Source: Echinarachnius parma
Lineage: Eukaryota > Echinodermata > Echinoidea > Clypeasteroida > Echinarachniidae
NCBI GenBank assembly: GCA_037951105.1
Contig: JBAMJV010007692.1
Coordinates: forward strand, 55,138 to 119,137
Direction of reading: 5' to 3'
DNA: 64,000 bases
A program made the position numbers and the translations under genes. The notes under the pieces are model-generated. The model saw nothing but the letters and a program-made list of their open reading frames with translations. It was not told the DNA's origin and ran no database searches. Below, in pieces: positions 6,469 through 51,719 of this stretch (within the stretch, counting starts at the first letter, position 1; each line of letters starts with the position of its first letter).

Positions 6469-8389
6469 ATGGCGTCGTCTTCTACTTCTAGCTCTACTGG
6501 GACTGATAGGACCTCATCGGATGCAACGGATACATTCGTTGGTTTGTTTGAAGATCCCACACGGTACAGCCAAGCTTATCGGACAGTCCTCCGATACGCA
6601 GATTATTACGAAGTGGTTGACAACTGGTATAGCAACATATTCCCGAGGGATATTGTTGACAAATTGGCGCCCAAGGACCAGCCCATACGCATTCTAGGCG
6701 TTGGCAGCGGAGCAGGTATATAATATAGTACAAAACAACTGTCTGTATAAATATTATGGGGCATTCTTTGGTCAATATTTCGTTTGCGTTTCGTATCGTT
6801 CTGTTTATGAAATATCCACTGAAATACAACAAAAGAGCATATAATACAGTTATTGGCTATACTTTGCTAGAATGCTCCCAAGAGAGCGAAAATGCATGTC
6901 ATATTTATACATTGTAATATATTCATCGATCGAGTGAGTGTTTAGTTAGGATTTGTATTGTTATCAGGCCTTTTATTATTATCATTATCTATCCGGCGCT
7001 CTTTAAAATCTTAAATGTAATATCCTTATACGGCTGTTAAAACATTATGGGGGAGGACGACCGTCGACAATTTATGATCAAAGACACTTGGAGATAATAA
7101 TTGAAGATGATGGTAACTCAGCCTCCTTATTTTCTAATAACATTATATCATGCAGGTGAGATAGACCTGAAGATAGCGTTGAGCATCCAGGCTCGATGGA
7201 ACAAGGTTCACAACACCGTCGTTGACCCATCACAAGATCAGAACGACCTGTACCGCCAGCTCCTGAAGACGACGACGGATGAAGGCGTGCATAACATCAT
7301 TTACGACTTCAGGCAGCAGACGATCGAAGAGTACCGCCAGGAAGAGGCGAACAGAGGAAGAAAGTTTGATTTCATCTCCATCGTTCACTGCTTGTACCAC
7401 GTACGAGATTATGACGACACAGTTGGATACCTGTACGAATGTCTGGAGGAAGGAGGGATCCTTCTCTGTGTGTCTTGCACAGGTTATTATTAAATGATTA
7501 TCCTTTCCCTATAACTTTCAAATTAGAATAGAAAAAGTAGACTAATTTTACTTTGTCCCTGTGGCGATTCCGTTCGTATATATATACTAACACTTTCCGT
7601 TTACTAGAACAATAATCATTCATTCTTGCTCACTAATCACTTAGTAATCAGTCAAACATGTCTTAGATTTTGTGGCAACCTGTTTATGGCAGCAAACCTG
7701 CCTAAAGTGGCCACCAAAAGTCGTCCCTTTATAAAACAAAACTAGTGTTATGGAACCTGTCTATAGAGGTCACCTGTTTACAGTGGTCATTTGTCTTGTC
7801 TCCCGTAAATAGGTGATTATTATGCACATGTTTGTTTGTCATCATTTTGGGTATTTCCCCTGACAATATCAACCCCAAACCGCCATGCAGCTACGCCGTA
7901 CGATACCAATCACGATTTAAATATATAGCTACTGCTACATCATAGGAATCGCGAGGAATTTCATAATTAAATTGTGGTTAGAAATAAGACTTTTCGCTTA
8001 TCTGTTAATATTCTTTATAATCCAAATCAGAATCCGCCAGTTACACAGTCATCCAGAAGACGCTCCCTCAGACGTGTACTCCAGTGAATAAACCCATCAC
8101 TTCCAGCGACATCTGCCAGTCCCTTGAGAGGCGAGGAATCACATACCAGACGTCCCCTCAGGACGTGAAGTTCGACCTGACCAAACACCTGGACAACAGT
8201 GCCCCTTCGGAGGAAACTGATCTCGTCATAGATTTCTTTTCCATGCTCATCGACGTGAAGAACCAGGCGCCGAAGTTTTACCGAGAGTTCGTCAACTTCT
8301 TGACGTCCGATCCGAGAGGCGTGAAGCGCACCGATGACGGCAAGCTGATTTTAGATGGTAGTGCTGAGGCAGTGTTTGTCCAGAAATAG
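6469..8389 (+). CDS. Histamine N-methyltransferase-like SAM-dependent methyltransferase, copy A
   Basis: Three exons: 6469-6715, 7156-7482 and 8031-8389, joined in phase 1 at both junctions through GT-AG introns (440 and 548 bp), giving 310 residues; human HNMT has 292. The start is the ATG in GTGAAAATGG. Residues 23-60 match the N-terminal helix region of HNMT (LF.D...Y). Residues 75-87 are ILGVGSGAGEIDL, the SAM-binding motif I. VVDPSQDQ (104-111) matches the SAM-ribose region, DFISIVHCLYHVRD (154-167) matches the substrate-facing strand, and ITSSDI lies early in exon 3. Expected role: cytosolic N-methylation of a small amine. In my ungapped alignment the human histamine contacts Glu28, Gln143 and Asn283 correspond to Tyr46, His160 and Gly301, so the substrate is uncertain. 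Exon 3 could start later (after TACTCCAG, also in frame), but the 8031 start restores a segment that human HNMT has. Confidence 0.85.
7664..7810 (+). repeat. Degenerate ACCTG..TA.AGTGG.CACC minisatellite in intron 2
   Basis: Four to five imperfect copies of a roughly 28-bp sequence (AACCTGCCTAAAGTGGCCACC, AACCTGTCTATAGAGGTCACC and CCTGTTTACAGTGGTCA) lie in intron 2. Related sequence returns after the stop codon (8405-8540), first in the same and then in inverted orientation. Found also in copies B and C. Confidence 0.5.
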
Positions 8390-9027
8390 ATCTTGCTAGT
8401 AATACATAGTCAGACCTGTGTAAAGTGACCATCCAAGGGAAACAAGAAAAGAGGCCCCATGGCCTATGCATGTAGACAGGTTCTATTGTATTATTATCCT
8501 CTGCAATGTCACTATAGGCAGGTTGGCTGCGATAGACTGGATGCCAATTAGTGGCAAATCCAAGCTATTTGTCCCATCCGTCACGCTCATCACAAGTCAT
8601 CTTAACTCAATAGTTATAACGTATAATTATGTTTGTAAATAATGTATGGCCTAGCTTTACAGGCCCGGGGGGGGGGGGGGGGGGGGGGGGGGTCATCGCC
8701 GAGACCGAACGTGATCGAGACCGAGACCAATTGGTTTGAGTTAATATAATTTTAATGCAATTAATGTCAACTGGGACGTACCGGACAATCATGACAATAG
8801 TTTACTAATTGTGTCATGTATACGTAATATAATATAATATAGACATCATAATCCATATTTCTAATGATAATAATAATTATTTATTTATAACGCGCATATC
8901 ACATTGTCTCTATGATATATCAAACATATTTATTTTAGTGAATTTCACTTGATGTTTGTTTAAGCAGTGATGGCCTTTAAGTGTTTCAGACTATTGTACA
9001 TTCGTAATGTATAATGAGAACTTACAG

Positions 9028-9272
9028 GGCCCATATTCATAAAACCCCGTTTAGTTTCCTGCTAAATCTATTTTGGATGACGTGGCTACGTATTTAGAAA
9101 ATAATCTTTCAGCTGCCAACTATGATTAACTGATTTAACTCAGTAGGTACCTAAGGGTAACCCAGCTAACCTTAGTTGGGAATCAGGAAATTTGCTCGTT
9201 GATCATTAAACTGTATAATCACAAATGGACTCAGGACGGAACTAAGCTAGTGGGGTTTTATGAATATGGGCC
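9028..9272. mobile_element. MITE with GGCCCATATTCATAAAACCCC ends
   Basis: The termini are about 21-bp inverted repeats: GGCCCATATTCATAAAAC at the left, and its complement at the right ending in ATGAATATGGGCC. Total length is 245 bp with no coding capacity. Flank Y keeps only the right-hand part (around 18595-18690). The identical copy in unit 3 is at 47522-47766. Confidence 0.65.
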
Positions 9273-10301
9273 GAGGACAAAATGTAATATATAGCTCGGA
9301 CTTGACTTCTGCTCCTTACTCCAACACGTCCTATTGCAAAAGTTCCAACATGGTCATGACGGTTAGAAAACTATACACATTAGGATGAGTTTTTGTTATT
9401 TTGTTGTAGTTAGTTTTGTTCACCGTTGTGTCAGTATATTGTTAGCATATGTAAACAGTTAATGTAGCAGTTAATTAGTCTACACTTATGGTATACTGTA
9501 GTTGTGAGTTGTGAGTTAGCTATTTTGTTTACATGCACGAATGCACGATCATCTTAATTAGCTATGGGACTATAACCGAAAGAGGTAGCACTGCAAGTAA
9601 CTGACGGTGTTTGATACACATAATACACAAAAAGCTCTTTTTCATTATCACTTATTGAACATTTTATCACTTAATAATTTTGTATACATTTATCAAAGTA
9701 TAATGTAAATAAGCCACGTATGTGAAGCCGCTAAAGCGAACCTAATGAATGAACAATTATGTCTACTCTTTGTTGAGAGTCAATATGGGGCCTAAAATAA
9801 TGTTCGATATCAGAATCTTATGTTTGATGTCTGTTTAATTATCCCTTATATAATAACTACTAGTATGTACATATTTATCATAGTCTAATGTGAATAAGCC
9901 ACGTATGTGAAGCTGCTAAAGCGAACCTAATGAATGATTATTTCTTTTCTATTTATATAGAGTTAATCATTATTGGGCCTACATTTCCGATCCTAGCAAA
10001 ATCTTCTTCAGAGGCTGACTGAACCCTTTAAAATGTTTTTCAGCATTAGTCTTTCAGATATGTAATGTGCGAAGTTTCTTGAGATAGCAATATCCTTCCA
10101 GGAATTCTGTATACATCCGAGTATATATTTTTAAATGAGTAAACAACACCTATTATAGATACGTTAGATATTTTGTTATTGAAATGGGGTCCAGACCCAT
10201 CTCATTTTTATTATTGGTACTCGGTATTTACACTCACTGTTGAAATGCTGTGTAAAATGGTTGTTGAATCTTTTTATACAACTTTAGGTGTAGCATGAAT
10301 A

Positions 10302-10639
10302 CCCAGCTAGCCACCTGAAGTCGGGCCGATGTCGGAAGTTGGTTGCCGGATGTCGGCATATCGCGGTTGGCTCGAGGTTAAAATGTCCGCCAGCCCAACA
10401 TCGTCACTACGTCATTTTTGTGATATATTGGCATAACGTCAATTTCCGACAATGGCCCAACATCATCTCATGACATGATGTTGGGCCATTGTCGGAAAAT
10501 GATGTTATGCCAATATATCACAAAAATGACGTAGTGACGATGTTGAGCTGGCGGACATTTTAACCTCGAGCCAACCGCGATATGCCGACATCCGGCAACC
10601 AACTTCCGACATCGGCCCGACTTCAGGTGGCTAGCTGGG
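10302..10639. mobile_element. TA-flanked fold-back MITE, near-perfect palindrome
   Basis: Starts CCCAGCTAGCCACCTGAAG and ends with its complement, flanked on both sides by TA. The arms are about 165 bp and almost perfectly complementary, meeting near 10470 (ATCTCATGACATGAT). It is nested in the CACTG-ended element. TA duplication fits the Tc1/mariner group among others; there is no transposase to decide. Confidence 0.75.
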
Positions 10640-10936
10640 TAGTTGTAGAAAGAAGGGTTGTGTAGTGTTGTGATATATATATGTAGTGTTGTGATATATT
10701 GGCATAACGTCAATTTCCGACAATGGCCCAACATCATCTCATGACATGATGTTGGGCCATTGTCGGAAAATGATGTTATGCCAATATATCACAAAAATGA
10801 CGTAGTGACGATGTTGAGCTGGCGGACATTTTAACCTCGAGCCAACCGCGATATGCCGACATCCGGCAACCAACTTCCGACATCGGCCCGACTTCAGGTG
10901 GCTAGCTGGGTAGTTGTAGAAAGAAGGGTTGTGTAA
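10420..10936 (+). repeat. 271-bp tandem duplication including one arm of the palindrome
   Basis: The segment starting GTGATATATTGGCATAACG at 10420 and ending in AAGAAGGGTTGTGTA at about 10663 is repeated from 10691 to 10936, separated by a short GTGTTGTGATATATATATG linker. The result is a central palindrome plus an additional, smaller inverted repeat. Unit 3 carries the same arrangement at 48913-49429. Confidence 0.8.
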
Positions 10937-11039
10937 AGCGGTCATTGTTCAAGCGTTGTTGACAAGTGTTAAATCACGTGATAGTTTCGACCGCGAAATC
11001 ACCGCGACAAAACCCTTTTGTCCCCCAGCAGACCAAGCG

Positions 11040-11114
11040 AACCGAGTTATCGCAGTCAGTAGCGTGTTAGACTTATAACCCAAAGAACCCTGGTTCGATT
11101 CCGACCTTGCCGCT
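11040..11114 (+). pseudogene. tRNA-like sequence, degenerate, resembles tRNA-Ile(UAU)
   Basis: GCAGTCAGTAGCG resembles a D-arm/A box, CTTATAA would be an anticodon loop with anticodon UAU, and GGTTCGATTCC is a perfect B box. The anticodon stem pairs poorly and the 5' half of the acceptor stem does not match the 3' half. It is therefore more likely a decayed tRNA or a tRNA-derived SINE head captured within the CACTG-ended element than a working gene. The copy in unit 3 is at about 49533-49607. Confidence 0.5.
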
Positions 11115-11138
11115 TTTTAGTACAATCCTTTTTGTATT

Positions 11139-11320
11139 TGCTATTTCAACAACAGGGTTGTTGAAATTTATTCTAAACAACAGTTGTTGAAAAATTAAAA
11201 CAACAGTTGTGTAAACTTTAAACAACTGGGGTTGTTGAATGTTTTCAACAACAGTTGTATGGTTCATATGTTAAACAGCGGTTGTTGAAAATGTTCAACA
11301 AGTTGTTGAATTTGTTTACA
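11139..11320. repeat. Cluster of CAACAACAGTTGTTG palindromes
   Basis: About seven AACAACAGTTGTTG-related palindromes or half-sites occur within 180 bp close to the right end of the CACTG-ended element. Left-end sequence near 10260 also has TTGTTGAA. The spacing looks like subterminal repeats. Confidence 0.6.
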
Positions 11321-12863
11321 CAGCTACGTTTTAACAGTGTACTGGAGGCCTACTTGCAAAACTGTTTAGATTATAGTTGTGACATATCAGTCAGCAGCAA
11401 TGGGTATGTGTCTTATGGCCTGGGAATACAACAGTTTTCGTGAAAATAAGAAATCTTTCGAAATATAAATTATGTTTTAAGTGCACATACACAATAATGC
11501 GAGCGGGGAACTTTGGTATCGCTATTGGATTGTGCACACGCACACGCACGCATTCATGTTTGATTATGCCAATTTCTGAACAATTTAGTGCATGGAACAC
11601 AATTAATTACATTTCTCTTCTCTGCAATTGTCCACCAGACAATTGTAAAAGGTCGAGTTCACTTTACACAATAATGTGAGTGGGGGACTTTGATATCATT
11701 ATTGGAATGTGTACACACACACTCACACATTTATGTGTGATTTATCAGCTCTTATTTACCATTTTTAAAACCCATCAAGGACGGTGGCCCACATATTCTA
11801 GGTTGGTAGTCCTACACTTCAGCAATACGAGTTATATGAAGTATACAATGAGAAAGAGCAATATACATTTCTCTATTTTTAGAGCCCTATTTTGTTACTC
11901 TATCTGCTTTAGTTATTTTGTAATGATTTTTATTGTTGCGTAGATCCCTATAATTTGGGAAAATCCGTAAATTGGCAACACAGATTTCGGCTTTCAAAGC
12001 AAATTTGCGGCAAAGTCACTTCATATTTGTCTTATTTTTCCACCTGATTTTATGTCATTTTTGTCAATAAGGGGTTGCCAATTTGTAGAGGAAAATAATG
12101 AATAATTTTGGAATTGATCATTATTTTCTTCTACAAATTAGCTCTCGTCCTTGATGGGTTTAGAATTAATCTTAATTCAATATGTAATCTTAATTGCGAA
12201 ACCTGGATAAATTCCGGCATTAATTACCAGATATTTCACCAATGCAACAATGTACAGCCAAATACAACAAGATCATTTCGCACGGTAAACCACAAATGAG
12301 ACGCAACTCACATGCATTCCAAATAGAAGAACATTACTTTGCGTAATAAAATAATTATGTCACCCACCTCAGTATTTCGTTGAAAACCATATACGTATAA
12401 CAAGCCTGATTTTAACCGGGATTTAGAACAAAAATTCTTGTTTCAATTAACGATTCCACTATTTTTACAGAACATATCTATGTGTTAACAAATTATTGTT
12501 ATTTGCAGATAATTTCTGCCGGTGATGGGTTTATGTATTAGCATTATGATTGTCATAATTACATGCAATTCAAAGTTATATTTTAATTTGATTGACACAT
12601 TGGATGTAAATTGGTGATTGGTCAAACGAATAGCACGTATACCACGAGGAACGTGATATATATGATAAAAGTTATATTCTTTTCTGATATTCCTACTAAT
12701 GTATTGAATCAATAAAAGTGGGAGAAAACAGTAACATCTGCTTTAGATTTGTGTTCCGTTGTTCATTGTCACTCATACGTATAATACATGCACTGTATGA
12801 TGTATACAAACCTGGTTCACTGAACGGGTCATGATTTTATTATTGTGAGGTTGTACATATTAA

Positions 12864-13221
12864 AGGTGCACCTTTAAAGTGTCAGATATTGCCCAAAATG
12901 ACATTTGAGACTTCAATCCTGTACCAAAATCATTGTAAGATATGTCCGAATGATGTGTGAAAGTTTCATTGAAAATGAACACTGCTTTACTGGTTAAAAA
13001 AACCGCGAAGATATGCGTCAACTTTTACAACGGACGTTTATGAGGTTTCCGTTCATTAACGCTTTTGAGCTGAATGATAGATATCGTCATACTAAAGGGG
13101 CACTTGAAAAAATCTCACCCTATTTTTATTCTTCACTTACCATAGCTAAACAACACGGTAGAAGAGAAACGAGGAAGCTCCAAGTAATTTTCGTGGAGTT
13201 AGACACTTTTCAGGCATCCCT
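12864..13221. mobile_element. 358-bp MITE, possible T2/Kolobok relative
   Basis: The ends AGGTGCACCTTTAAAGTGTC and (reverse complement of the right end) AGGGATGCCTGAAAAGTGTC are inverted repeats. The left end is preceded by TTAA. Flank Y (21262), unit 2 (36195) and unit 3 flank Y (about 59760) lack it, so it inserted after flanks X and Y separated. No TTAA remains on the right. The 77-residue open frame inside it is not a recognised protein. Copy in unit 3: 51362-51719. Confidence 0.55.
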
Positions 13222-13639
13222 GGCAATGAGAGATGAACACAATTAATCATCATTGGCTTTATAACTTACTTAAAACTTGCACACACATATGAGTGTTTTT
13301 GTATGTTTCAATGATTAGGCTGGAATGCATATAAAGGGTTAATATGCAAGAGCAAATGAAATAAGTTACCATCATGATAATATATACAAAAAAATATTAC
13401 ACTGAAAATGATATCTTCCTCATTACATTATAGTAAAAGTGTAATTGGAAAAACTATCATAACAAAATAACCTACATTTTTGGGGTTATTTTTGTCTCCC
13501 CGTTTTAACCCTTCAAGACTGGTCCCGATGCCGAAAATACTCAGGCAGGGGTCTATATATTATAGAGAATATAACAGAATCAATCAGTCCTGAACGGGTT
13601 AAGCAGATTTAATTGCATGTTTTCTTAATGGTTAGAAAC

Positions 13640-13960
13640 ATATCGTTGGAGGCGTGGGCGGGGGTTTCGGTTTCAGCCTACCCCCACCCCCCCCCCCCCC
13701 CCCCCCCGGAGTTTTGAAAACGGCCATATTCTGTCAAATCCATTTCATATTCCGGCAAAAAAAAATCATATTAGGGCAAAATAATGTCATAATGCTGAAA
13801 GAATCATGTCATATTCGAGCAAAGTCATGTTACATTTAGGGAAAGTCGGGTCATTTTGAGAGGAATATAATGTTATTTTCGGGCAAAACCGCCTCATACT
13901 CTGGCAAAATCACGTTATATTTCGATTTAACCGGCATCGAAAAGACAATTTTCGGGCATG
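13640..13960 (+). repeat. Dispersed TTCGGGCAAA-type repeat at the TRIM block border
   Basis: GGAGGCGTGGGCGGGGG, a long C run, GGAGTTTTGAAAAC, then degenerate GGGCAAAATAATGTCATA units. It is the same family as 5570-5735 but on the opposite strand. It lies just inside the left border of the TRIM block, where homology with flank Y stops (about 13560). Copy in unit 3: about 52150-52455. Confidence 0.55.
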
Positions 13961-15522
13961 GAAGATGCGAGGACCGTTTCATTTTAGTTTGCATTGTATG
14001 TTTTGTTTGTCAGGTGAAAAGGCGGGAAGAATAATCATTCGGGCAAAAGACCACAGCCCCCTGAGGAAAATATGCCCCTACGCCCATGCATGGCCATGTT
14101 ATTCAAAGGATCTAAATTATATTTATCCGTTTTGCGTGGCAGAATTCTATACCATTCACATGCATGCCATAATATAGTATCATAAACGATTTCAATGATG
14201 CCTAGTGTAGTGTCTACCCAACAAAAATGTTGCCTTTTGAACTTTGAAGTGCAACAATTCAAAGCATTACCAAAATAATATGGAAATAACAGCCGTTAAA
14301 AGACATCACCTTACTAGTTTATTGTAGGTGGGTTTTCCCGTGTGGTTTTCCCCACTTCAGTGTTTTGTATTGGTCAGTATTAACAATGGAGCAAGGCCAC
14401 CAATAATTGTGACAATTGCCATACGGGCGCCATACATTCAGCTCAGAGAGAAAACACAGCCAACAAATCTGAAGAATTACTACTTCTCATGATAACCGAA
14501 ATCCCCAACTATAGCATATAAAAACATGTAGATAATTACACTCATGTTTTTGACGGTCTCCTGCTTCCATACAGCTCTTAGCCTGAACTACTAATGATTG
14601 CAAGTACGTCGATGGCGTAGATACGGGGACACGACGTTTCCCCTAATTTGACATAAACAATAAGAAACATATTCAAAGCGAACATCAGTGGAAATATGAA
14701 TACATAAAGTGGCCCCCAATACGTCCCGTGCCCCAACCCCTAGTCCGACCACGCTACGCCTCTGACGTACGAATACATAACCATGATAACAATCAATGAA
14801 AAACACTTCGCAATGGAAAGTCCAACCTTGAATTGTGTGATCCCGTAAATGACTATTATTATGCAAAACATGTTTTGTTAATGATTCTCTAGATCGAGCA
14901 ACACATTGGTGCATACACATTTTCATAAAAAGCCGTGCCCTTATAATTATTCTTATGCGCATGCGCGTATACATACGGCATTGCTGAGACTCTGTCGCTC
15001 CGAAAGGACTATACAATCATCGATACACAAAGTATTTGGAAGCAAACGAGCAAACAGTTAGTATAATTGATCATGTTTATGGAAATTCCAGACATTGAAA
15101 GTTGAAATTTTCTCGACGTTGGATATTCAAGAACGCAGATACCGACCCAGTTATTACTGCTGATAATCACTCCGTTGATTAAATTAATCAAAGCATTAAA
15201 TGCTTCTTCAAAATCGACGCGTTTGTTTCTGAAGAGCGAGGGTGGACCTTATTTTTAGATGCCATCACTTCTGATGAAATTCAAGGCGCATTTTACGTTA
15301 AAAGGTTGGACACGCATTGCTTTTTATTATATATTGGAACTAATAACTAAATTTCCTTCAAAGACATTTTCAAGCATTGTCAATGTACCTTCCTAAATCG
15401 ACCACTCCTTATTACTGCTAAATTATTGTGCAGGTCATGTTTAACTATTGGAGTAATACAACGGCTTGAATTCTGCGAATTGTATGTGACACTAGGTAAA
15501 CTGGTATACAAGACTTGCAACC
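13961..15522. other. 5' region of TRIM gene 1
   Basis: Single-copy within the unit and nearly identical to 52452-54013. Open frames here (for example 141 codons on the minus strand) match no family I know. A pair of GGGTTTTCCC/GTGGTTTTCCCC boxes lies at 14329-14352. A possible splice acceptor TTATTGTGCAG at about 15424-15434 could join a 5' untranslated exon to the coding exon. No promoter is called. Confidence 0.35.
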
Positions 15523-17652
15523 ATGTCTAACCAAAATTTAGATACCGTTGTTTCGGAAGAGGTGGAGTGCGCTATATGCCTTGAGAGGTTGGACACACCG
15601 CGCATACTGTCGTGCCTTCACAGCTTTTGTGAAAAATGTCTGCTCAAAACTGTCGAGAGCCGATCTGCCTCTGCACCATATAATCCGTCGACATTTGAGT
15701 GTGTCACGTGCAAAGCGACCACGGCTTTACCCAAGAACGACGTTTGTGGATTGAGACTCGACTTCCGCGTAACCAGACTGATAGAGGCTCTCGAAGAAAA
15801 GGAGAAAAGGACCCAGAAACTGACCTGCTCGTCGAAGAAATGCGATGCCTGCGGATGCGCCGACAATGTCGAGGAGTCTTCATTTGCTTTCTGCAAAGAA
15901 TGCAGTCAGCTACTCTGCCGCCGATGTTCATCAGCCCATGCTGGCATTCGAACGACCCAAAGTCACACCGTGAGCAGCATCTCGGATTTGCTTAGCGGTA
16001 AAGTCACTATACAAAGCAAAGTTGATGCTGTAGCAATGTGTCGAAAGCACAACGACGAAAAACTCAAACTGTTCTGCATTACCTGCTCTGAAATAATCTG
16101 CCACGACTGCACGCTCTTTGATCACAGCCGCGAGAAGTATCACACGTTCCATTTCTTGAAAGATTATGTTCCAAATATGAAGAGGGAATTGGCATCAAGG
16201 CTAAAACAGGTTGAAAGCAAAACCCAAGAATTCTCTAAATTCCTTGTGTTGCTGGGCGACGTCGAATCCAATATTGAAGAGAACCAAGTGAAGACGGCGG
16301 ATAAAATCAAGACTTCCGTCGAGGATCACAAATCTCGTGTTAATGGTTTCAACAGCAACATGCTGGAGGAACAAGAAAAGTTCCATGGTGCCCAAGGTGA
16401 GGGAATCAAACAACTCCGTCAACAGACTGAGCAAATGAAGGCACTTTCAGAGAAAAGCTCGGAGATGACGCAGCAAGTTCTGAAGAATCCGAAGGATGTT
16501 ATTGGCATGGCATCCGTGTACAAGAGTCTACTCGAGGCAATGAACAAGACCATAGCAAAGAAGCCGGATGAAAAGAAACTGGAGGATATCAAAAAGGCTG
16601 TTCGAGGGCTGCACTATCACGCAGAGTCTATGCATGCAAAGGTTGGTGAAGTCTGGCCTGGGTGTGCATGTGAGAAAACAAGTAGACTTAAATGCAGCTG
16701 TTCTCCAAAACATATCCAGTTCACTTTAGATGGGAGACTGGCTGTCCTTGGACAGATATTGAATGCGACAGGTCAGAAATACACAGTGCCATTATACACA
16801 CAGGGAAATAGGTGTAGTACTAAGCACTGTAACTGTTCAGCTTACCATTCAGGTTACCATCGTTCCTGTGGTTGCAATGCATGCACTCACTATAATTTTA
16901 GTGAGATATCTTGTTATACCGGTGATGTTATTCAGAAAACCGTTCTTCATCCTATGATCGCAACAACGGCAACGTGCTACCCAAGATGTACCCAGTTTCC
17001 CTATACAATATGGCTTGGAAGCTTGAAGTATGATGACATCAGTAGCTTTGCCACCGTGTCATCAAATCGGTTCGTTATCGCCACTAAAACTGGTAAGCTA
17101 CACCTTCTTGGAGACACCCTTACACAGCTACCGCAAAATATCCCTCAAGGAACTGTCATCACTGACCTAGCAACAGATAGCGACGACAACATCTATGCAG
17201 TCGACGCGAAGGGCCATCAAGTACACGTGTTGCAAGTCGACGGTAGCCTCTCGAAGACGGTGTCTACAGGCACACTAGTTACACCCGACGCAGTAGCAGT
17301 CAACCAGACCAATGTCGACAAGATTGCTGTGACACATCGGGAAGGAGAAGAAACCAAAGTTTCGGTCCTCGACCTACAGGGGAAGGTGGTGTCCTCGATC
17401 CACCGCACAGAATGGAAGGATGTTGCGATCGCCTGCGACGCTAAGCTGATTTACGTCCTCTCGTATGACGCAAACAAGATGACGCTTCAACGGTTCACGA
17501 TGGAAGGCAATCTCGTGGATGAGCTGCTGAAAGATGAGTGTTACACCTGCGAACGTCCACTGATGGCCGTTTCTTCTGTGGGAACTGTTGCGATAGTCAC
17601 AGCGACGGGTAACGACGGAAAGGTTCTCATGACGTCATCACTTTACAAATAG
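15523..17652 (+). CDS. TRIM-type RING/B-box/coiled-coil E3 ubiquitin ligase with C-terminal propeller, gene 1
   Basis: A single uninterrupted frame of 709 residues starting at GCAACCATGTCT. RING finger C3HC4: C16, C19, C31, H33, C36, C39, C60, C63. B-box 1 around C107-H139. B-box 2: C173, H176, C185, C188, C193, C196, H201, H207. Coiled coil about 215-345. A cysteine-rich stretch with CxC pairs lies at 381-464. The C-terminal 250 residues have an NHL-like repeat (ITDLATDSDDNIYAV near 546-560), as in the TRIM2/3/56/71 style of layout. Expected role: E2-dependent ubiquitination of a partner bound by the propeller; such genes are widely expanded in invertebrate deuterostomes, often linked to innate immunity. 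The partner is unknown. No AATAAA is seen in the 200 bases after the stop; the transcript may run into the HNMT-like fragment, which contains ATTAAA. Confidence 0.9.
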   Translation: MSNQNLDTVVSEEVECAICLERLDTPRILSCLHSFCEKCLLKTVESRSASAPYNPSTFECVTCKATTALPKNDVCGLRLDFRVTRLIEALEEKEKRTQKLTCSSKKCDACGCADNVEESSFAFCKECSQLLCRRCSSAHAGIRTTQSHTVSSISDLLSGKVTIQSKVDAVAMCRKHNDEKLKLFCITCSEIICHDCTLFDHSREKYHTFHFLKDYVPNMKRELASRLKQVESKTQEFSKFLVLLGDVESNIEENQVKTADKIKTSVEDHKSRVNGFNSNMLEEQEKFHGAQGEGIKQLRQQTEQMKALSEKSSEMTQQVLKNPKDVIGMASVYKSLLEAMNKTIAKKPDEKKLEDIKKAVRGLHYHAESMHAKVGEVWPGCACEKTSRLKCSCSPKHIQFTLDGRLAVLGQILNATGQKYTVPLYTQGNRCSTKHCNCSAYHSGYHRSCGCNACTHYNFSEISCYTGDVIQKTVLHPMIATTATCYPRCTQFPYTIWLGSLKYDDISSFATVSSNRFVIATKTGKLHLLGDTLTQLPQNIPQGTVITDLATDSDDNIYAVDAKGHQVHVLQVDGSLSKTVSTGTLVTPDAVAVNQTNVDKIAVTHREGEETKVSVLDLQGKVVSSIHRTEWKDVAIACDAKLIYVLSYDANKMTLQRFTMEGNLVDELLKDECYTCERPLMAVSSVGTVAIVTATGNDGKVLMTSSLYK

Positions 17653-17840
17653 ACGGACTTGATGGTGCACTATTGTTAATAATGGTAACATGGACAAATT
17701 CCCTTTTCGGCCCATGACATACCATATAATTTGGAATTCGGGTTGATAATATTTCAGATATATAAGAGAAAGATATATCAGAGAAACATTTTTTTTTTCT
17801 GAAGAAAAAAACATGTATGTACTCGATATTCATGTTATTC

Positions 17841-18202
17841 TTGGGATCCTCCTTTGTGTGTCTTGCACAGCTAGGTTAGTATTAAATTGCTTTCAAATTA
17901 GAATATAAAAAGTAGATTTGCTTTGTCCCTGTCGAGATTCCGCGTGTACAAACACCTTCCGTTTAGAGCAATAATCATTCATTCTTGCTCACTAATTAAT
18001 CAAACCTGTCTTAGATTAAGTGACAACCTTTATAGCAGCAAACCTGCATAAAGTGGTCGCCAAAAATCTTCCCTTAAAAAAAATTGTCTTATGGAACCTG
18101 TTTATAGAGGTCACCTGTCATGTGAAGAACCAGGCGCCAAAGTTTTACCGCGAGTTCGTCAACTTCTTGACGTCCGATCCGACAGTGTTTGTCCAGAAAT
18201 AG
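17841..18202 (+). pseudogene. 3' fragment of the HNMT-like gene downstream of TRIM gene 1
   Basis: 17841-17870 matches the end of exon 2 (GTGTGTCTTGCACAG), followed by intron 2 sequence, then part of exon 3 (18123-18202) encoding VKNQAPKFYREFVNFLTSD and ending in the same FVQK-stop. The first part of exon 3 and an internal stretch of about 50 bp are missing, as are exon 1 and most of exon 2. It cannot encode the enzyme. Its junction with the TRIM block marks the right border of that block. Confidence 0.85.
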
Positions 18203-21200
18203 ATCTTGGTATAGTATTAGTCAACTCAAACCTGTGTAAAGTGACAATCCAAGAGAAACAAAAAAAAGTGGCCCCATGGCCCATGCATGTAGTCAGGTTC
18301 TATTGCGTTATCATTCTCTGCAATGGATCACTTTTGGTGGTCACTATAGGCAGGTTGGCTGCGATAGACTGGAGGCCAATTAGTGGAAAATCCAAGCTAT
18401 TTGTCCCATCCGTCACGCCCATCGCAAGTCATCTTGCAAGTCGTATATGTATTTTGTAGTTTTAGTCTGCTCCTTAGACCCCTTAACTCCCGTTTCAGGG
18501 TTTTTGTAGCTCCAAAGACCCTATATTTGTTGCTTGTCCGTGCGGCAAACCCCCGCCCAAAATAATTCGAGTACCCTCTGGGTAACCAGCTAACCATAGT
18601 TGGGAATCAGGAAATTCGCTCGTTGATAAGTGATCACAAATGGACTCGGGACACAACTAAGCTAGTGGGGTTTTTATGAATATGGGCCGAGGACAAAATG
18701 TAATAAAGAGCTCGGACTTGACTTCTGCTCCAAACTCCAACACATAATACGGCATTGCAAAAGTTCCAACATGGGCATGACGGTAATTTAGAGAACTTTA
18801 CACATTAGGATGAGTTTTTGTTATTTGGTTGTAATTGGTTTTGTTCACTAATTGTGTCATTATTGTTAGCATACTTATGTAACAAGTTAATGTAGCAGTT
18901 AATTAGTCTATACTTTTGGTATACTAGTAGTTGTGAGTTGTCCGTTAACTATTTTTTACATGCACGAATGCACGATCATCTTGATTAGCTATGGGACTAT
19001 AACCGAAATAGTTAACACTGCAAGTTACTGACAGTGTTTGATACACATACTACACAATACATCTCAGTTCATTATTCCTTATATTATAATTATGTCGGTA
19101 TCCATTTATCATTATAGTCTAATGTACTAAAGCCACGTATGTGAAGGTGCGAAAAAGAACCTAATTAATGAACAATTATGTTTACTCTTTGTTGAGAGTC
19201 AATATGGGGCCTAAATGTTTGATCCTAGCAGAATCTTATGTTTGATGTCTGTTCAATTATCACTTATACACTTATATAATAACTACTAGTATGTACATAT
19301 TTATCAGAGTCTAATGTAAATAAGCCACGTATGTGAAGCTACTAAGTTGAACCTAATGAACAATTGTATATTTTCTTTTTTTAGAGAGAGTTAATCATTA
19401 TTGGGCCTACATTTCTGATCCTAGCAGAATCTTCTTCAGAGGCTGACTGAACCCTTTTAAATGTTTTTTTTTTCAGCATTAGTCTTTCAGATATGTAATG
19501 TGCGAAGGTTCTTGAGATAACACTATCCTACCAGGAACTCTGTATACATCTTTAAATTAGTAAATAACAATCATTATAGATACGTTAGATATTTGTTTGT
19601 ATTGAAATGGTAGTTTTGTAGTAGTTAAGACCCGTCTTATTTATATATTATTGGTACTCGGTATCCGTACACTATGGAGGCCTACTTGCAAAACTGTTTC
19701 ATTATAGTTGTGAAATATCAGTCAGCAGCAATGCGTGTGTGCATAGTGCGTCTCATGGCCTGGGAATATAACAGTTTTCGTGAAAATATGAAATCTGTCG
19801 AAATATAAATGATTTTTAAGTGCACAGATACGGTAATGCGATCGGGGGACTTTGGTATCGCTATTCCAGAATGTGCACACGCACACGCACGCATTCATGT
19901 GTGATAATTGTACCCATTTCTGAACAATTTAGTGCATGGAACACAAATAATGTCATTTCTCTTCTGTGCAAAATTATTTCCCCAAGACAGTTGCCAAAAG
20001 TCGAGTTCACTTTACACAATAATGTGAGTGAAGGACTTTAATATCATTATTGGAATGTGTACACAAACACTCGCACATTTATGTGTGATTTATCAGCTAT
20101 GTCATAATTATGTAGTAGTTCTTATTTTCCTTTTTAAAACCATCAAGGTGGGTTGGTAGTCCTACACTTCAGCAAGAAGATAACAAGTTATATAAAGTCT
20201 ACAAGGAGAAGGAGCATTACTTTCTCTATTTTTAGAGCCATATTTTGTTACTCTACAGGCTTTAGTTATTTTTAAAATTATATTATGTGTATTGTTGCGT
20301 AGATCGCTATAATTTAGGAAAACCCGTAAATTGGCAACACATTGTAATGTTTTTAACACAGATTTATGCGTTCAAATTGGCAAATTTGCGCCAAAGTCAC
20401 TTCATATTTGTCTTAAATAATTGTAATTATTAAATATTTTCCACCTATTTTTATGTCATTAAAAGGCAGAACAAAAATTAGGAGTTGCCAACTTGTAGAG
20501 GAATATAATGATAAATTTTGAAATTGATCATTATTTTCCTCTACAAGTTAGCTCTCGTCCTTGATGGGTTTAGAATTAATCTAAATTTAATATGTAATCT
20601 AAGTTGCGAAACCTGGATAAATTCCGGCATAAATTACCAGATATTTCACCAATGCAACAATGTACAGCCAAACAACAAGATCATTTCGCACGGTAAACCA
20701 CAAATGAGATGCAACTCACATGCATTCCAAATAGAAGAACATTACTTTGTGTGATAAAATATGTCACCCACCTCAGTATTTTGTTGAAAACCATATACAA
20801 CAAGCCTGATTTTAACCTGGATTTTAGAAATTATTTTCTTGTTTTAATTAACCATTCCACTATGTTTACAGAACATATATTATGTGTTAACAAATTATTA
20901 TTTGCAGATAATTTCTGCCGGTGATGGGTTTATGTATATAATATTATCATTATAATTGTCATAATTACATGCAATTCAAAGTTATATTTCAATTTAATTA
21001 ATACATTGGATGTAAATTGGTGATTGGTCAAACGTATGCCACGTATATATCACGAGGAACGATGATAAGTATGATAAATGTGCGATTCTTTTCTGATATT
21101 CCTAATGTATATTGAATCAATAAAAGTGGGAGAAAACATAAACATCTGCTTCAAATCTGTGTTCCGTTGTTTATTGTCACTCGTACGGATAAATGCATTG

Positions 21201-22966
21201 TATGATGTATATATACAAACATGGCTCACTGATCGGGTCAGGACTTTTTTTTATTGTGAGGTTTTACGTAAGGCAATAAAAGATAAACAAAATGAATCAT
21301 CATTGGCTTTACAACTTACTTAAAACTTGCACACACATATGGATGTGTGTGTATGTTTCAATGATTATGATGGAATGCGTATGAAGGGTTTATATGCAAG
21401 AGCAAATGGAATAAGTTACCATCATGATAATACCAACAATATTACATTGACAATTATATCTTCCTCATTACATTATAATAAAAGTATAATTGGAAAAAAT
21501 ATGATAACAAAATAACATACATGTTTTTGTTATTTTGTCACCGTTTTAATCCCTTAGACTGGTCCCGATTCCCGAAAATACTCAAGCAGGGGTCTATATA
21601 TTCAGTTGTACTTGCCCAAAAGCTGAATCACGTGGCCCCAAACAAAGACAGACATTACAAATTATGTTCCGTTTGGTTTCCCGTTAAGGCCAGTAGAATA
21701 AGGAATCAATTAAACTTGTTGTCCCGAAGCTAAATGTGTGCAGCCCTGTGCTAATTTTGAGCATTGTCTAGGACATTGACATTTATTAAGCAAGTCTGTC
21801 AACATATCACACTATTTTCCCCAAACACTTGCAAATATCATACACATATCGAAACTGATATTTCACCACCGAAATTAACAGTTTTGCAATTTCTTCTCCA
21901 ACAATGTTAACAAAGTACCTTTCAGATGTGATAAGTTTAAAACTACAATGAAATAAAAACACAGAAAATATGATTCCTGAGGTATTTATAAAGAGTGGAT
22001 GGATGGAAGCGTATTGTTAAGGTGACAAGTTGTCAAGGAAGTTTGCACATAACATGTAGGACAGATTGATGCTGAAAAATCAGCAAGAATATGTATACTG
22101 TTCGTACAAAACAATGTAACGTACATGTAAAAAGTAGTTGTATATTGTATATATTGCACAAAAGAAACTTACTGATGCTTACATCTTGTTTTAAAAAGTA
22201 CTATGTATATCTACACAACAACATGCATAATAATAATAGTGATAATGTTTTCATAGCACACTTTTACATTAACAAACTTCTCTTCTGTACATCTATTTCT
22301 GTTAACAACTCACATTCTAATACCAATTTAAGAATGAACAGTTACACACCATAGATCCATACCAAAAAGTTAACACTCCTACTGTTACATAAACTTGGGG
22401 GGCTCTTGCCCCCCCCCCTCCCCCCCCAAACAAAAAACAACAACAACACAAAAACACACAAAAAAAAACAGTGATTGAAAAAAGTGTATTCTTTAGACAA
22501 GATAACTCAGATTTTACTTCATGTCAAGTCAAATTTCCTTCCTAAGTACCTGCACCAGATTGCATCATTTCAAGTAAACCATTGCAAAAGCACCCTTACC
22601 GTGCACGGACGGACACCCACCTACCATAACACCCTCACATCACATTTCCCCCTCTCGGTCGCTTCGCTCCCTCGGGAATCAGTCTTGTCTACGTCTGGAA
22701 TACTTTGTTCATGTTGTTGTTTCATACATAATGTGGCTTTTGATGCACTGTTTGAAGTGATATGTCACTTTGCGAATATTATTTTGAGGGTGCATATTTT
22801 TTTCTTTATGAAACATAACCTCTTTTCCCGGTCAGTATAGAATCAAGTCCAAAAATGCACTAGCTCCCTACCGAGGGGGAACAACCCCCTCCCACACCCT
22901 CCCCCCGCTCAGTCGCTTCGCTCCCTCGCAATATCCGGCGGTGATGCGGATTTGGTTAAGCCCCAC
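18203..22966. repeat. Flank Y of unit 1, intergenic
   Basis: Diverged copy of flank X lacking its CACTG-ended element and 358-bp MITE, and extending about 1.4 kb further (21600-22966). It has doubled 185-bp repeats (19092, 19290), a G/C-run block at 22396-22428 and two CGCTTCGCTCCCTCG boxes (22650, 22910). No gene is recognised; the open frames of 60-120 codons do not resemble proteins. Confidence 0.65.
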
Positions 22967-25900
22967 AAACGTTTTTGCTCATTACGCCACTGGTGTAATG
23001 AGTTAGCGAATATCACTTTGCACAAACGCTCATTACACCCCTATTACGTTGACTTTGTACACAGTTAATTACAACTTTCCAGTGGATAAATACAAATCCA
23101 AGCTATTCAATCGTACTATCTTTTTAACGAAAGGGACATTCGAAAAAAAACCCTGCTCCGCATGCTTCTAAATTGGTAATAATCATGGGCGTCGATCACG
23201 GGGGGGGGGGGGGGGGGGATAAATCCCCCCCAATATTTCAGGTGGGGGGGATATATGGCCTGTATTATTATTCCCCCCCTCAATATTTGGGGTTAAAACA
23301 TACATAACAATTTATTTTTAGCATTGAAATAAAGGAGCATTGCCCCCTCTCATTCATAATGTAAAAGTTGTTACTATAGTACCACTTTTGATAGTGCTAA
23401 ACTGCCCAAATCCAAATCTTCCGGGGGTTGCGCCCCCTGGAACCCATAATTATTAAGATTATTTCACCCAGTCCCGGCCCTGTACTCATCGAATAGTTTT
23501 ATTCAGGACTTCTCTCTTGGCACACTTTCAGGCGATTCTGGCCCACTCTGTGCGTCGGCGCTTCGCTCACTAAAATTGAGCTAACTATTCAATAGTTAAT
23601 GATGAATAACAGTTATTGGGAAAGTTACAGAAAACATTTATAATTTATCAATATTGTTGAATAAGTATCTAAAAAGGTATTGTGTGGTAAAATCCGAACC
23701 TAACGATGCGTTTAATGCAGAAATATCGGAAGAAATCCAATACCCGCCCGTGAAATGTATAAATCCACCGCCCGTTTGCACCTGTCCGCGCCGCTAGCGC
23801 TGGACTGGAGATATCGACAAGCTGGGGACAAACGCACGCGGTCAATAATGCACGTAGCGTATGCGCGATTCCGCGTTGGCGATATCTATCCGCAGCAGAT
23901 AAATTTATAATTTTGCAAATATATCAATTAGTACGCGGTTTCTTGGCCAAATTTGTATAATCCCATATTAGTAAAACTATATTCTTTCACATGGTTGGTA
24001 ATAAGAGCGTATATTTCATTTTTAGGGGGTGGGGCGTTTCCCACTACTGTCATTCACCTTTAACTGTATAAATTATAGACAACATCTTTATTTCTGGATA
24101 TTACAAATCCCAAAGCTTCCGGGGGCTCCGCCCCCTGGACCCCCAATAAGCTTCCCAACATGGGTATCCCTTGACTTATTCTATTCAGGGTTCCATCGGG
24201 ATGATTGCAATCTATGTATCTATCAGGCTAAAGTTCGTCCATACTTGGACAAAGCCCCCTCATATCATAACATGATGCTTGTAATATGCACTTAATAATC
24301 TTCCAATTTCTAAACAGCTAAATCAAAAGCTAACTAACTAAAGAATAGTTAACTGTATATATTTACAGATAGACAACATCTTTATATCTGGATATTACAA
24401 ATCCCAAAGCTTCCGGGGGCTCCGCCCCTGGACCCCAAATAAGCTTCCCAATGTGGGTTTCCCTTGGCTGATGCTATTCAGGGGTCCATCAGAATGCTTG
24501 CAATCTATGTATCTATCAGGTTAAAGTTCATCTTGGACAAAGCCCACCTCATAACATGATGCTTGCAATGTGCACTTATTAATCTTCCAATTTCTAAACA
24601 GCTAAATTCAAAGCTTTTGGGGCCCCCTATCCCCCCCCCCCCCCCTCAGTCATAAAAACCCGGGCACGCTGCTGAATTGTCGCTTCGCTCCCTCGCCAGA
24701 CATGCCAGAGATGGTCAAAATGACGTATCATCCCCCCCAATGGCGAAAAGAAATCGACGCCCTTGGTAATAATACTCGACTGGATGCACCCCTCCCCTCT
24801 TGGCACCCTCTGATTATGTCAACCATGCATGGCTATATACATCAAACTAGATGCATATGGTTGCAAGAACAAGAGATAAGCCGTGCCCAGATTCGGGAAA
24901 ACTATGATTTATATGAGGTACATAGATCGAGTGGTCAAGTGTGACGTCAACAAAGACCTATTTTAGAATTTCCAAATTTGAACTTCATTTTCTGAAAGAG
25001 CATACAAAATAATGTCCAAATGTTGAAAATCAATCGATTTATGCTCATCCGAATGAATTTATTTAAATAGGAAATCACTGTTAATTTGACCAGTTCATAA
25101 CGTTACGAACCAGAGCAATTAAAATGAACAATGATTTCCTATTGAAATCTATTTATTCGGATGGTCATATGTCAGCTAATACGTCACATATTCGATGGAT
25201 TTTCAACCTTTGGGCATTATTTTGTATGTTTTTTTAAAATGAAGTTCAAATTGAGTTCTAAGAACAGATTTGTATGATGTCACAGCTTCGTTATATTCTA
25301 TTGCATTCATGAACGTAAAGGAGTACATTTTTCTCAGCCAGGAGGGTTTGAGGTCTTTGCCCGAATAATTATCCTTCCCATTCTCACCTGGCAAGGACAA
25401 AGTAGAGAAACAAAAGTTCTTCGCCTCTTTCATGGCCAAAAATGTAGTTTTTAATGTTTAAGTTAAAAAATGAGATGTTGTTTCCCGAAATATGGGACGG
25501 TTTTGCCAGAAAATGACGTCGTAATTCACCACACAAGTACAAGACCGTCAATGTTCTTTCTTGCCGGTTTTCTCATTCGTATAATATAATTGCATTTGTG
25601 TTTATCTTTCGTTATGTTGTTCAGGCGCGCCGGAAGCAGTTTTGGATTGGGGGGGGGGGGGGGGCAAAACTCTAAGGGGGCTCACGATTTATGTGTTTAG
25701 GGGCTCATGCTCAACCACACTCACAGGGTTGCCAGAGGTAAGAGTGAGATATTGCGAGGATAAAGCGACCAAGCCCGAGGGAGCGACGTGACTGAGCGGG
25801 GGGGGGGGGGGGTGTCCCCCCGCCCCCCCCCCCCCCCCCCCCCCCCCCCACGGTAGCAGTAGGGAGCTTTTGCATTTTGGGACTTGAAATTGTGCAATCT

Positions 25901-30048: not shown

Positions 30049-31199
30049 GACATTTATCATTATAGTCTAATACAAAAGCCACGTATGTGAAGCTGCGAAA
30101 AAGAACCTAATTAATTAACAATTATGTCTACTCTTTGTTGAGAGTCAATAGGGGTCCTAAATGTTCGATCCTAGCAGAATCTTATGTTTAATGTCTGTTT
30201 AATTATCACTTATAACATAGCTACTAATATGTAAATATTTATCATAGTCTAATGTAAATAAGCCACGTATGTGAAGCTGCTAAAGCGAACCTAATGAACA
30301 ATTATGTATTTTCTTTTTAGAGAGAGTTAAAGGGAGCGTTGAGTATTGGTATTTTCCGAAGTGCCCCCCCAAAATTAATTGTAACTGATTTGATTGATTT
30401 CAATTCCATATGAAAGATCATAAAAAACATGGGAAATAATAATAATTCCCATTCAAATGCTCTCATTGTTCAAAATATTATATAAAAGTGATTGTTTGTG
30501 CACGCTAATTGTGCTTAAAACTATATATATGCAGTGGCGTAGACAGGTTCTTACACCTGGGGGGGATGTTTTGCCGTTCACCGGACCAATACCAATTTGT
30601 GCGCGCCCGAGACCGCCTGCCAAATTTGTTCAAGAACAAGGAAATTGCTTGAAAGTCCTCTTAGTGGGGGGGGGGGGGGAATTAGATGTTGGCCGGAAGC
30701 AGTTTTGGATTGGTGGTGCAAAACCTATGGGGGCTCACGATTTGTGTGTGTAGGAGCTCATGCCCCCTGGGGGGGGGGGGGGGGTACTCACGTATATTGG
30801 GTATACGGGGATGTGCCGCTGGGAAGGGTGACTTTTTCAAGAAAGATCCTTAGACATGGGTCCCCTTTTCATCAAAAAAATCCTTAGACATGGGTCCCTG
30901 TTTTCATATTTCCCCTTTTTTATACAGGATTTTGGGATTTGCGGATGTGAAATTGCAAAATTTGTCAAGCTCGCTACGCTCGCTAACTTAAAACCACAAA
31001 ATTTGTGGGAAATACACCCAAAACATGCGCCGCAGGCGAAAAAAAATCCTTAGTCATGGGTCCATTTTTCGCAAAAGGACCCTTAGATGTGGGTATGGGT
31101 TTGGAGGTCTCAGCCGCACACCCCGTCCGACTATAATCTGAGTACCCCCCCCCCCCCCCCCTCACACATTCACAGTGCTGCCAACTTTGAGCCAGATGT

Positions 31200-31700
31200 G
31201 AAAGCGAGACATTGCAAGAGCTGCGAAGCGACCAAGCCCGAGGGAGTGAAGTGACTGAGCGGGGGGAGGGGGTGTCCCCATCCCACGGTAGGGAGCTTTT
31301 GCATTTTTGGACTTGACATTGTGCAATCTGGTGCTTACCTAGATAGGAAATTCGGGCTTAACATTGACTGTATCTGGGAAAGCGTGTTATGATTTGATCG
31401 ACCAGAAATGTTAAATATATTTTCAAGAAGAAAACAAATAATTGACGCACTGATACATATGCTCCCCAACACAGGGAGCGAAGTGACTGAGCGGGGGGGG
31501 GGGGGGGGGGGGGAGGGGTATCCCCCTCCCACGGTAGGGAGCTTTTGCATTTTTGGACTTGAAATTGTGCAATCTGGTGCTTACCTAGATATGAATTATT
31601 CGGGCTTAACATTGACTGTATCTGGGAAAGCGTGTTATGATTTGATCGACCAGAAATTTTAAATATATTTTCACGAAGAAAACAAATAATTGACACACTA
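31200..31700 (+). repeat. Two tandem 249-bp units
   Basis: The segment with CTTACCTAGATA...TTGATCGACCAGAAAT occurs at 31399 and again at 31648, in each case preceded by a G-rich GACTGAGCGGGG block and GGGAGCTTTTGCATTTTTGG. It is related to the ~190-bp monomers of block L by its GTGCAATCTGGTGC linker. Confidence 0.7.
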
Positions 31701-31742
31701 ATAAATATGCACCCCAATACACACACAAATATTGTATTTATA

Positions 31743-33164
31743 TTTAGCGTCATACACAGTTCCAACATCACCATATGCCACATAAACACATATGTGATTA
31801 CAAATTAAGTATACATTTATCATATTACTGATTGCGATCATGATAGTGATATAATATATTACTTGACGGAAAAGATAAATATATCTATAAAAGTGTTTGC
31901 CACTATTGTTAAGTATGATTCTTTCATCGATACAATCATGAATTATATAATACATGTTTATGCTTTGTATAGTAAGGGTGCATGAAAATGATTATTATTG
32001 TAGATTAAATTGTTTGCCTATATTTTATTAGGCATTTGGCGGTTGCAGTACCGATTTGATGAAAACGTAGTACAGTGTTCCCACTTATACTCATATACCA
32101 GCCCTTTATCATGTTTATTAGATTAGTAATAAGATTCAAATTAGATATGAAGATATTTGCCTATACATTGTAAGACTTGATATACATAAGTGTCGTATGG
32201 ATTTAATGACAATATACCAGTTAGAAAAACAACATGGGTTTTTTTTATAATTCCTTAATCATATTATTGTAATTTAGAATAAGTTGTATACCTTTATTTT
32301 CTTGGGCCTGATACAGTAGTATAGATTAACTAAGTATACTGATCTTGTTTAAACAACAATACCTAGACATTCGTTAAAAAATATTATTCAGTTATTGTAG
32401 ATACCTTAATCAAATTATTTTTAGATGAAGTGTATGCCTACATTTTCTATAAATATATATTTGCTATAATTCCTATGTTTTCAAGTTGTTCCTGGTAATG
32501 TTTCTAATTTTGCTGTCACAAACCAAAAATGGTTTTGGTATTTCTTCTCGGGTTTGAGATGAAATATTCTAGATGCTAATACAATTTGTATTTACAATAT
32601 ATAAATAGCGTTGTTTATCATAGTGGACATTTTATGAGTTCCATGTTGATTAAATTAATGAGTAGTTTAATCATGTACTTAGCCAAAGATATGATTATCA
32701 TGAGATACTCATACCCATGTTTACATGGTTTAGAAGGTTAGTTTCATTTCTAATAACAATAATACATCATAGAGTTGTATTATTATATTGAATCGCATAG
32801 CGGACTCCATAATCTGCAATACCATTACGCTGATTTAGTAACGAAAATTTAATTCAAAGGTACGGTTACGTTTGATTGGAGCGCAACTAAAGATATATTC
32901 TCATCATAGAAATGTGTTATTTGCCTTTTTAGAGTTGGATGCTCTTGACAAAGAATACTTGTGTAGTAAAGAAATACTCCCCAATTTTGTCACGGTACAT
33001 GGTTATCATGAATTGGTACTAACCTCAATTGAAAACTGACACAATAGTTGTATTCTTACGGAGTAATAAAAGCCTGAATTATGTATTCAAATCGAAAATA
33101 ATAATCTGAACTCTCGACTGAAATCGTTTAGCGTCATACACAGTTCCAACATCACCATATGCCA
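31743..33164. repeat. AT-rich 1.35-kb block between 38-bp direct repeats
   Basis: A 38-bp sequence starting TTTAGCGTCATACACAGTTC occurs at 31743-31780 and 33127-33164. Between them lies strongly AT-rich DNA without open frames, G runs or similarity to anything else in the window. It looks like an insertion into one copy of a repeat that was duplicated at the insertion point. Confidence 0.6.
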
Positions 33165-46400: not shown

Positions 46401-46888
46401 GATACCAATCACGATTTAAATATATAGCTACTGCTACATCATAGGAATCGCGAGGAATTTCATTATTAAATTGTGGTTAGAAATAAGACTTTTCGCTTAT
46501 CTGTTAATATTCTTTATAATCCAAATCAGAATCCGCCAGTTACACAGTCATCCAGAAGACGTTCCCTCAGACGTGTACTCCAGTGAATAAACCCATCACT
46601 TCCAGCGACATCTGCCAGTCCCTTGAGAGGCGAGGAATCACATACCAGACGTCCCCTCAGGACGTGAAGTTCGACCTGACCAAACACCTGGACAACAGTG
46701 CCCCTTCGGAGGAAACTGATCTCGTCATAGATTTCTTTTCCATGCTCATCGACGTGAAGAACCAGGCGCCGAAGTTTTACCGAGAGTTCGTCAACTTCTT
46801 GACGTCCGATCCGAGAGGCGTGAAGCGCACCGATGACGGCAAGCTGATTTTAGATGGTAGTGCTGAGGCAGTGTTTGTCCAGAAATAG
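43422..46888 (+). CDS. HNMT-like methyltransferase copy C (LINE in intron 2)
   Basis: Exons 43422-43668, 44118-44444 and 46530-46888 (247, 327 and 359 nt, the same as copy A) give an intact 310-residue frame. SAM motif GVGSGAGEID spans the exon 1/2 junction. Differences from copy A include R14S, D61V and H128Q. The histamine-contact positions again read Tyr46, His160 and Gly301. Intron 2 is 2085 bp against 548 bp in copy A because of the LINE at 44601-46121 in the same orientation as the gene. The LINE carries its own AATAAA (46078-46083), so premature polyadenylation within the intron is possible. Confidence 0.82.
44601..46121 (+). mobile_element. 5'-truncated non-LTR retrotransposon (L1/Tx1-like LINE)
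   Basis: Target-site duplication ATTAATTCTTGCTC at 44587-44600 and 46122-46135, a poly-A tail (about 46098-46121) and AATAAA just upstream. The open frame runs to 45962 and codes for the C-terminal part of ORF2, after the catalytic reverse transcriptase core: the thumb-like FGRIIVVKSLLVSKLNYLFL segment, PYHLGGAKM, then a CCHC-type zinc-binding motif C332-x2-C335-x8-H344-x4-C349. The frame is fully open from the truncation point to the stop, which suggests a recent insertion. Endonuclease and RT active site are absent. It is not in units 1 or 2. Confidence 0.88.
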
Positions 46889-51361: not shown

Positions 51362-51719
51362 AGGTGCACCTTTAAAGTGTCAGATATTGCCCAAAATGAC
51401 ATTTGAGACTTCAATCCTGTACCAAAATCATTGTAAGATATGTCCGAATGATGTGTGAAAGTTTCATTGAAAATGAACACTGCTTTACTGGTTAAAAAAA
51501 CCGCGAAGATATGCGTCAACTTTTACAACGGACGTTTATGAGGTTTCCGTTCATTAACGCTTTTGAGCTGAATGATAGATATCGTCATACTAAAGGGGCA
51601 CTTGAAAAAATCTCACCCTATTTTTATTCTTCACTTACCATAGCTAAACAACACGGTAGAAGAGAAACGAGGAAGCTCCAAGTAATTTTCGTGGAGTTAG
51701 ACACTTTTCAGGCATCCCT
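51362..51719. mobile_element. 358-bp MITE, unit 3 copy
   Basis: Same ends (AGGTGCACC... and ...GGCATCCCT) and same flanks as 12864-13221; duplicated together with flank X. Confidence 0.55.

Follow-up and report, generated by a model that had tools for sequence, protein, structure and literature searches.

The window analysed here is a stretch of 64,000 bp (C7681:55138-119137) from an assembly of 1.2 Gb in 14,790 contigs. It holds two copies of a duplication, unit A and unit B, each carrying a TRIM gene (Table 1). When the units are aligned they differ by 71 mismatches and 28 indels in total. Outside two divergent patches, one in the TRIM coding sequence and one in non-coding DNA, there are 24 mismatches in 15,751 bp, or 0.15% (99.85% identity, counting mismatches only and keeping indels apart). 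An inverted self-match at 10300-10641 is overlapped by an exact 247-bp direct repeat, and both units have it (10300-10935 and 48793-49428).

Between the units, positions 30400-33100 are a high-copy interspersed repeat, with many copies at 93-98% identity among the 40 scored of 7780 candidates; the segment was for this reason ruled out as a unique anchor for the other haplotype. Positions 44592-45962 hold a 456-aa open frame, which we take to resemble the C-terminal part of a LINE-type reverse transcriptase. Searching the assembly with the upstream flank 13570-15400 returned A, B, a third copy termed C and one further partial copy on the same contig as C (C7216), and no TRIM hit lay beside that partial copy.

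Table 1. Positions of the genes, patches, blocks and repeat copies in the window.
Feature	Positions	Strand	Basis
Unit A, first copy of ~18-kb duplication (holds gene A)	7618-25506	+	Self-alignment
Unit B, second copy of ~18-kb duplication (holds gene B)	46122-64000	+	Self-alignment; contig ends there
TRIM gene A, single open frame of 709 aa	15523-17652	+	RING and B-box above Pfam cut-offs; weak NHL match
TRIM gene B, single open frame of 709 aa	54014-56143	+	RING and B-box above Pfam cut-offs; weak NHL match
Divergent patch of gene A (counterpart 54304-55332 in gene B)	15813-16841	+	28 mismatches, 25 codons
Block 1: 4 sites where A is odd and B = C (largely ancestral states)	15813-15919	+	Three-copy comparison, paralogue polarity
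Block 2: 14 sites, C = A	15951-16193	+	Three-copy comparison
Block 3 (end of the coiled coil, and insert): 10 sites where A is odd and B = C	16463-16841	+	Three-copy comparison
Candidate conversion tract in gene B (= 15952-16064 in gene A)	54443-54555	+	Identity to p7681_13
Second divergent patch, non-coding (against 59814-60921)	21323-22431	.	19 mismatches in 1109 bp
Repeat copy D in spacer	35883-36916	.	Matches unit A at 7 sites where B = C differ

Both proteins have an N-terminal RING finger (Pfam zf-C3HC4_2, 35 bits against a cut-off of 27) and two stretches of B-box zinc finger (zf-B_box, 31 and 32.9 bits against a cut-off of 24.1). A single NHL stretch at the C terminus, where TRIM-NHL (TRIM2/3-like) proteins have a propeller, is a weak match (13.1 bits, below the cut-off of 20). 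The B-boxes, B-box 2 included, align with those of TRIM28, whose chains align through the B-boxes as far as about residue 243; the coiled coil named in this text is a putative one after the B-boxes. The close family in this genome has 21 members of full or nearly full length (A, B, C and 18 paralogues), some of them with broken frames. More distant TRIM relatives are also present (a wider protein search scored 63 of 929 candidates). Near-identical copies of such distant genes were found on four contig pairs (L032-L039; 98.8-99.8% identity over 2.6-3.2 kb in all four pairs examined), which suggests unpurged haplotypes standing side by side in the assembly. Contig C14600 (L031) carries mitochondrial-type COI and COII frames whose motifs look echinoderm-like, with TGA codons inside and one AAA codon where a conserved motif has Asn.

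Divergence and silent sites in the coding patch

An earlier note, made from the letters of the window, had placed about 28 base differences in the coding patch, with 20 amino-acid and about five synonymous changes. The first figure is exact, and the patch thus holds 28 of the 71 mismatches of the duplication; of the 25 codons that differ, 20 change the amino acid and five are silent. All 28 differences are substitutions inside the frame, and both frames stay open. The flanking code, described as almost unchanged, has no mismatch at all in 15523-15812 or 16842-17652, and the nearest ones outside lie at 14541 and 19662. When 71 mismatches were placed uniformly 20,000 times, the densest 1029-bp stretch held no more than 16, compared with the 28 observed. 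The patch is sharp with respect to the coding sequence, as had been claimed, but it is not the only one, because the non-coding patch diverges too.

The gene 2 variants that had been singled out (R206, R208, N210) were found as Y206R, T208R and H210N. In the TRIM28 alignment these residues flank the last histidine of B-box 2, presumably a zinc ligand. The proposed grouping of the changes into three clusters also stood, with only three changes in the third (codons 416, 418 and 440). The 20 changed residues sit at positions that vary across the family (mean entropy 1.04 against 0.55, P = 0.0003), and this fits relaxed constraint or selection alike.

Within the patch, dN was 0.026 and dS 0.032, giving a dN/dS of 0.83 that is not significantly above 1 (Fisher P = 0.64). 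The same codons gave 0.40 among 12 of the 18 paralogues, so that the A/B value is about twice that of the family. This comparison by region excluded p245_81 for an internal stop, p245_86 as cut, and p245_50, p7681_34 and p14009_36 for broken frames, as well as p245_59. Amino-acid changes did not significantly exceed the proportion seen in paralogues, either in the whole patch (P = 0.20) or in codons 164-224 (P = 0.055). The dN/dS check that the earlier note proposed thus lends no support to its suggestion of diversifying selection, and the patch does not by itself show selection favouring the changes.

Silent divergence in the patch was 6.7 over 213.5 silent sites, against 24 mismatches of any kind in 15,751 bp of background, an increase of about 20-fold (P = 1.4e-7, or 2.4e-6 with 6 counted). 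The remainder of the frame had no change at 256 silent sites, and against it too the increase was significant (P = 0.004). Selection alone cannot explain an increase that includes silent sites, and the DNA of the patch must be older than its flanks. A patch whose common ancestor is older than that of its flanks requires some form of recombination or an assembly error.

Block structure, candidate donor and patchiness of the family

Of the 28 patch sites, copy C matches B at the first 4, then A at 14 and B again at the final 10, and this pattern defines blocks 1 to 3. Upstream of about 15957 it is well diverged from both A and B, while over 16842-20965 the only differences among the three copies are five single sites, of which C alone is odd at four and B alone at one, and two one-base indels. 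An insert of about 1.1 kb in its RING region (L009 ~7050-8180, minus strand) leaves copy C with a long open frame that lacks a normal RING start. C7216 was rejected as a simple haplotig of C7681, as identity between its remaining TRIM genes and those of C7681 reaches no more than 95.0% and 93.1%, compared with 98.8-99.8% in the four likely haplotig pairs; copy C is more likely a further copy of the array.

Judged against the paralogues, the agreement of B and C in block 1 is mainly ancestral state. Blocks 2 and 3 each contain derived-looking agreements: three states common to A and C in block 2 (16014, 16043 and 16184) and three common to B and C in block 3 (16494, 16769 and 16774) occur in none of the 18 paralogues. 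As assembled, these two sets would conflict on any single tree. The switch between the blocks falls within 270 bp that are invariant among A, B and C, and since the phase rests there, the order of blocks 2 and 3 may be an assembly error. The runs probability for the block pattern (7e-7) presupposes that sites are independent and the phase correct, and it does not serve as proof here.

A candidate donor was found for part of block 2. Over 113 bp, including a 16043 state present in 2 of the 18 paralogues, gene B is identical to p7681_13, which lies on the same contig on the opposite strand (C7681:13153-15243). The run was significant by global permutation with 21 sequences (P = 0.013; 871 gap-free polymorphic sites) and with 20 (P = 0.006; 756 sites). 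The smaller set holds 17 of the 18 paralogues, p245_86 being cut at the end of its locus; the close-pair comparisons and trees also used these 17. Over the 243 bases of block 2, B differs from p7681_13 at 14 positions and from A at 14, and A differs from p7681_13 at 20. The shared run could instead be ancestral sequence common to both or a transfer in the other direction.

No whole tract was found in any of the 18 paralogues, and none of them shows the B states at 16093, 16138, 16145 and 16193 or the A states at 15813, 16463, 16543 and 16548. Assembly searches with the patch, with block 2 of B and with block 3 of A gave 24, 23 and 21 matches and no unknown close copy, and import of the whole patch from one assembled paralogue was rejected. 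Neither these searches nor the 18 paralogues provided an assembled donor for block 1, block 3 or the rest of block 2. The earlier note had proposed a search for a donor paralogue with the gene 2 variants (R206, R208, N210); the gene 2 bases at 16138 and 16145, which make R206 and R208, are in none of the 18 assembled paralogues. Its proposal of conversion from a third TRIM paralogue is supported as regards exchange, by the silent divergence, the three-copy conflict, the candidate tract and the patchiness of the family, and has a candidate donor for part of one block. It had also named a dN/dS near or below 1 with no donor as an outcome that would refute the idea; our results come close to that outcome, except that a candidate donor exists for part of a block.

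Similar patchiness was seen elsewhere in the family. Significant shared, conversion-like tracts were detected in 13 of 210 pairs, three of them among A, B and C and one borderline (0.0495), while the other 197 pairs gave none. The paralogues p245_81 and p14009_36 are 17% divergent in the 5' flank; through codon 163 they differ at 19 of 489 bases, and the remainder of the gene has two differences. At the tested polymorphic sites p7681_34 is identical to p12349 in 15540-15927 and p7216_50 in 16609-17125, so that it looks like a chimera of the two (5' part and middle, respectively); its frame is broken near codon 512 (L016, L017, L013). FastTree trees built from four segments place A, B and C beside different neighbours, and they are at odds over the grouping of C with A and B in codons 1-96. 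Local similarity that breaks the overall phylogeny, the mark of ectopic conversion, was therefore observed for part of block 2 (B and p7681_13), for other pairs and in the segment trees.

In the second patch, unit A agrees with repeat copy D at seven sites in 21343-21687 where B and C share a different state, and A alone differs at seven further sites in 21695-22431. Positions 21323, 21686, 21986 and 22419 fit neither pattern. This patch is the same kind of divergence as the coding one, with a matching partner in the window over part of its length.

Origin of the patch and parallels in other families

We consider a recent tandem duplication combined with short-tract ectopic conversion from diverged members of the array, most of them not in the assembly, to be the best explanation (probability about 0.6). 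A TRIM gene of the array would have been copied very recently together with about 18 kb of flanking DNA, and around that copying short coding stretches would have been overwritten by ectopic gene conversion or an equivalent non-allelic exchange, the donors being older, diverged members of the same array. The outcome would be the patch of several percent between copies that are otherwise nearly identical. In this account we infer which way sequence was transferred, that donors are missing, in what order the events took place and that the blocks are separate tracts. The process is of a known kind and is an ordinary way in which clustered genes are reshuffled.

An unlikely rival is an artefact of assembly or polishing, in which the copies or haplotypes are real and mixed reads have swapped blocks or made the flanks look identical. 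The near-identical TRIM contig pairs, the position of the block switch in an invariant gap and the end of the second unit at the contig end are consistent with this, as is the history of sea urchin Sp185/333 genes, which are reported to have been assembled into hybrid genes (PMC5103432). On the other hand, both frames are open with in-frame substitutions throughout, the patch itself, block order apart, is independent of phase, and the background differences together with the 28 indels show that the units were told apart. Somewhat less probable again are old allelic versions of the patch, kept by balancing or diversifying selection against homogenisation, with flanks made young by duplication and exchange and with A and B having fixed different versions. 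The raised dN/dS relative to the paralogues, the near-threshold value for codons 164-224, the family-variable positions of the changed residues and the states with no assembled donor would all fit; however, the amino-acid excess is not significant, relaxed constraint also predicts variable positions, and a similar second patch lies in non-coding DNA.

That diversifying selection has acted since the duplication on nothing but point mutations is highly improbable. The proportion of amino-acid changes among the changed codons speaks for it, while the silent sites are raised as well, dN/dS is below 1 and many B states are those of other paralogues. The silent-site test rejects it, unless a hotspot of mutation were restricted to the patch. 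Under the preferred explanation, duplication with short-tract conversion, the imported tracts are visible because the flanks are near-identical, and the locus cautions that divergence rich in amino-acid changes is not, between fresh duplicates, necessarily a sign of positive selection.

In TRIM5alpha, B-box 2 trimers form the three-fold vertices of a lattice and the B-box packs on the coiled coil (PMC4936894). By analogy the A/B changes, which lie around the last B-box 2 histidine and near both ends of the coiled coil, could touch assembly of the ligases. It is conceivable, if quite improbable, that the B-box 2/coiled-coil part is an exchanged cassette, so that conversion in the array keeps reshuffling an assembly surface without altering RING or C-terminal domain between sisters, and sister E3 ligases would form distinct homo-assemblies. 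If so, the animal would gain combinatorial variety from a TRIM array, comparable to Sp185/333.

Our literature search found vertebrate TRIM studies and work on Sp185/333, with no study of conversion in an echinoderm TRIM array among the matches listed; this locus would offer a clean example of mosaic evolution for a TRIM array whose reading frames are single-exon, apparently outside the vertebrates. The nearest parallel is Sp185/333 (SpTransformer) of the purple sea urchin. Its clustered genes are reported to lie in near-identical segmental duplications, have mosaic coding sequences for which conversion was proposed, and have a known history of assembly-made hybrids, so the parallel extends to the risk and serves as a warning (PMC5103432, PMC8634487). 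Sp185/333 encodes a protein family unrelated to TRIM; its element mosaic lies in exon 2, GA/GAT repeats flank the genes, and almost no pseudogenes are reported for it (PMC5103432, PMC8634487), whereas several of our TRIM copies are broken.

Fish finTRIM, btr and trim35 are likewise large duplicated TRIM families with recombination breakpoints, and the RING-B-box part of finTRIM was reported to be under positive selection (PMC2657112, PMC3137616). These fish families end in B30.2 domains, and selection was shown mainly there (PMC2657112, PMC3137616); in contrast, our genes have a weak C-terminal NHL match and selection is not significant. The young TRIM genes of primate chromosome 11 are also recent segmental duplicates for which a conversion event was proposed; it is reported to have made two copies identical over >6 kb, and conversion was judged not extensive (PMC3228819), whereas here divergence is the local exception.
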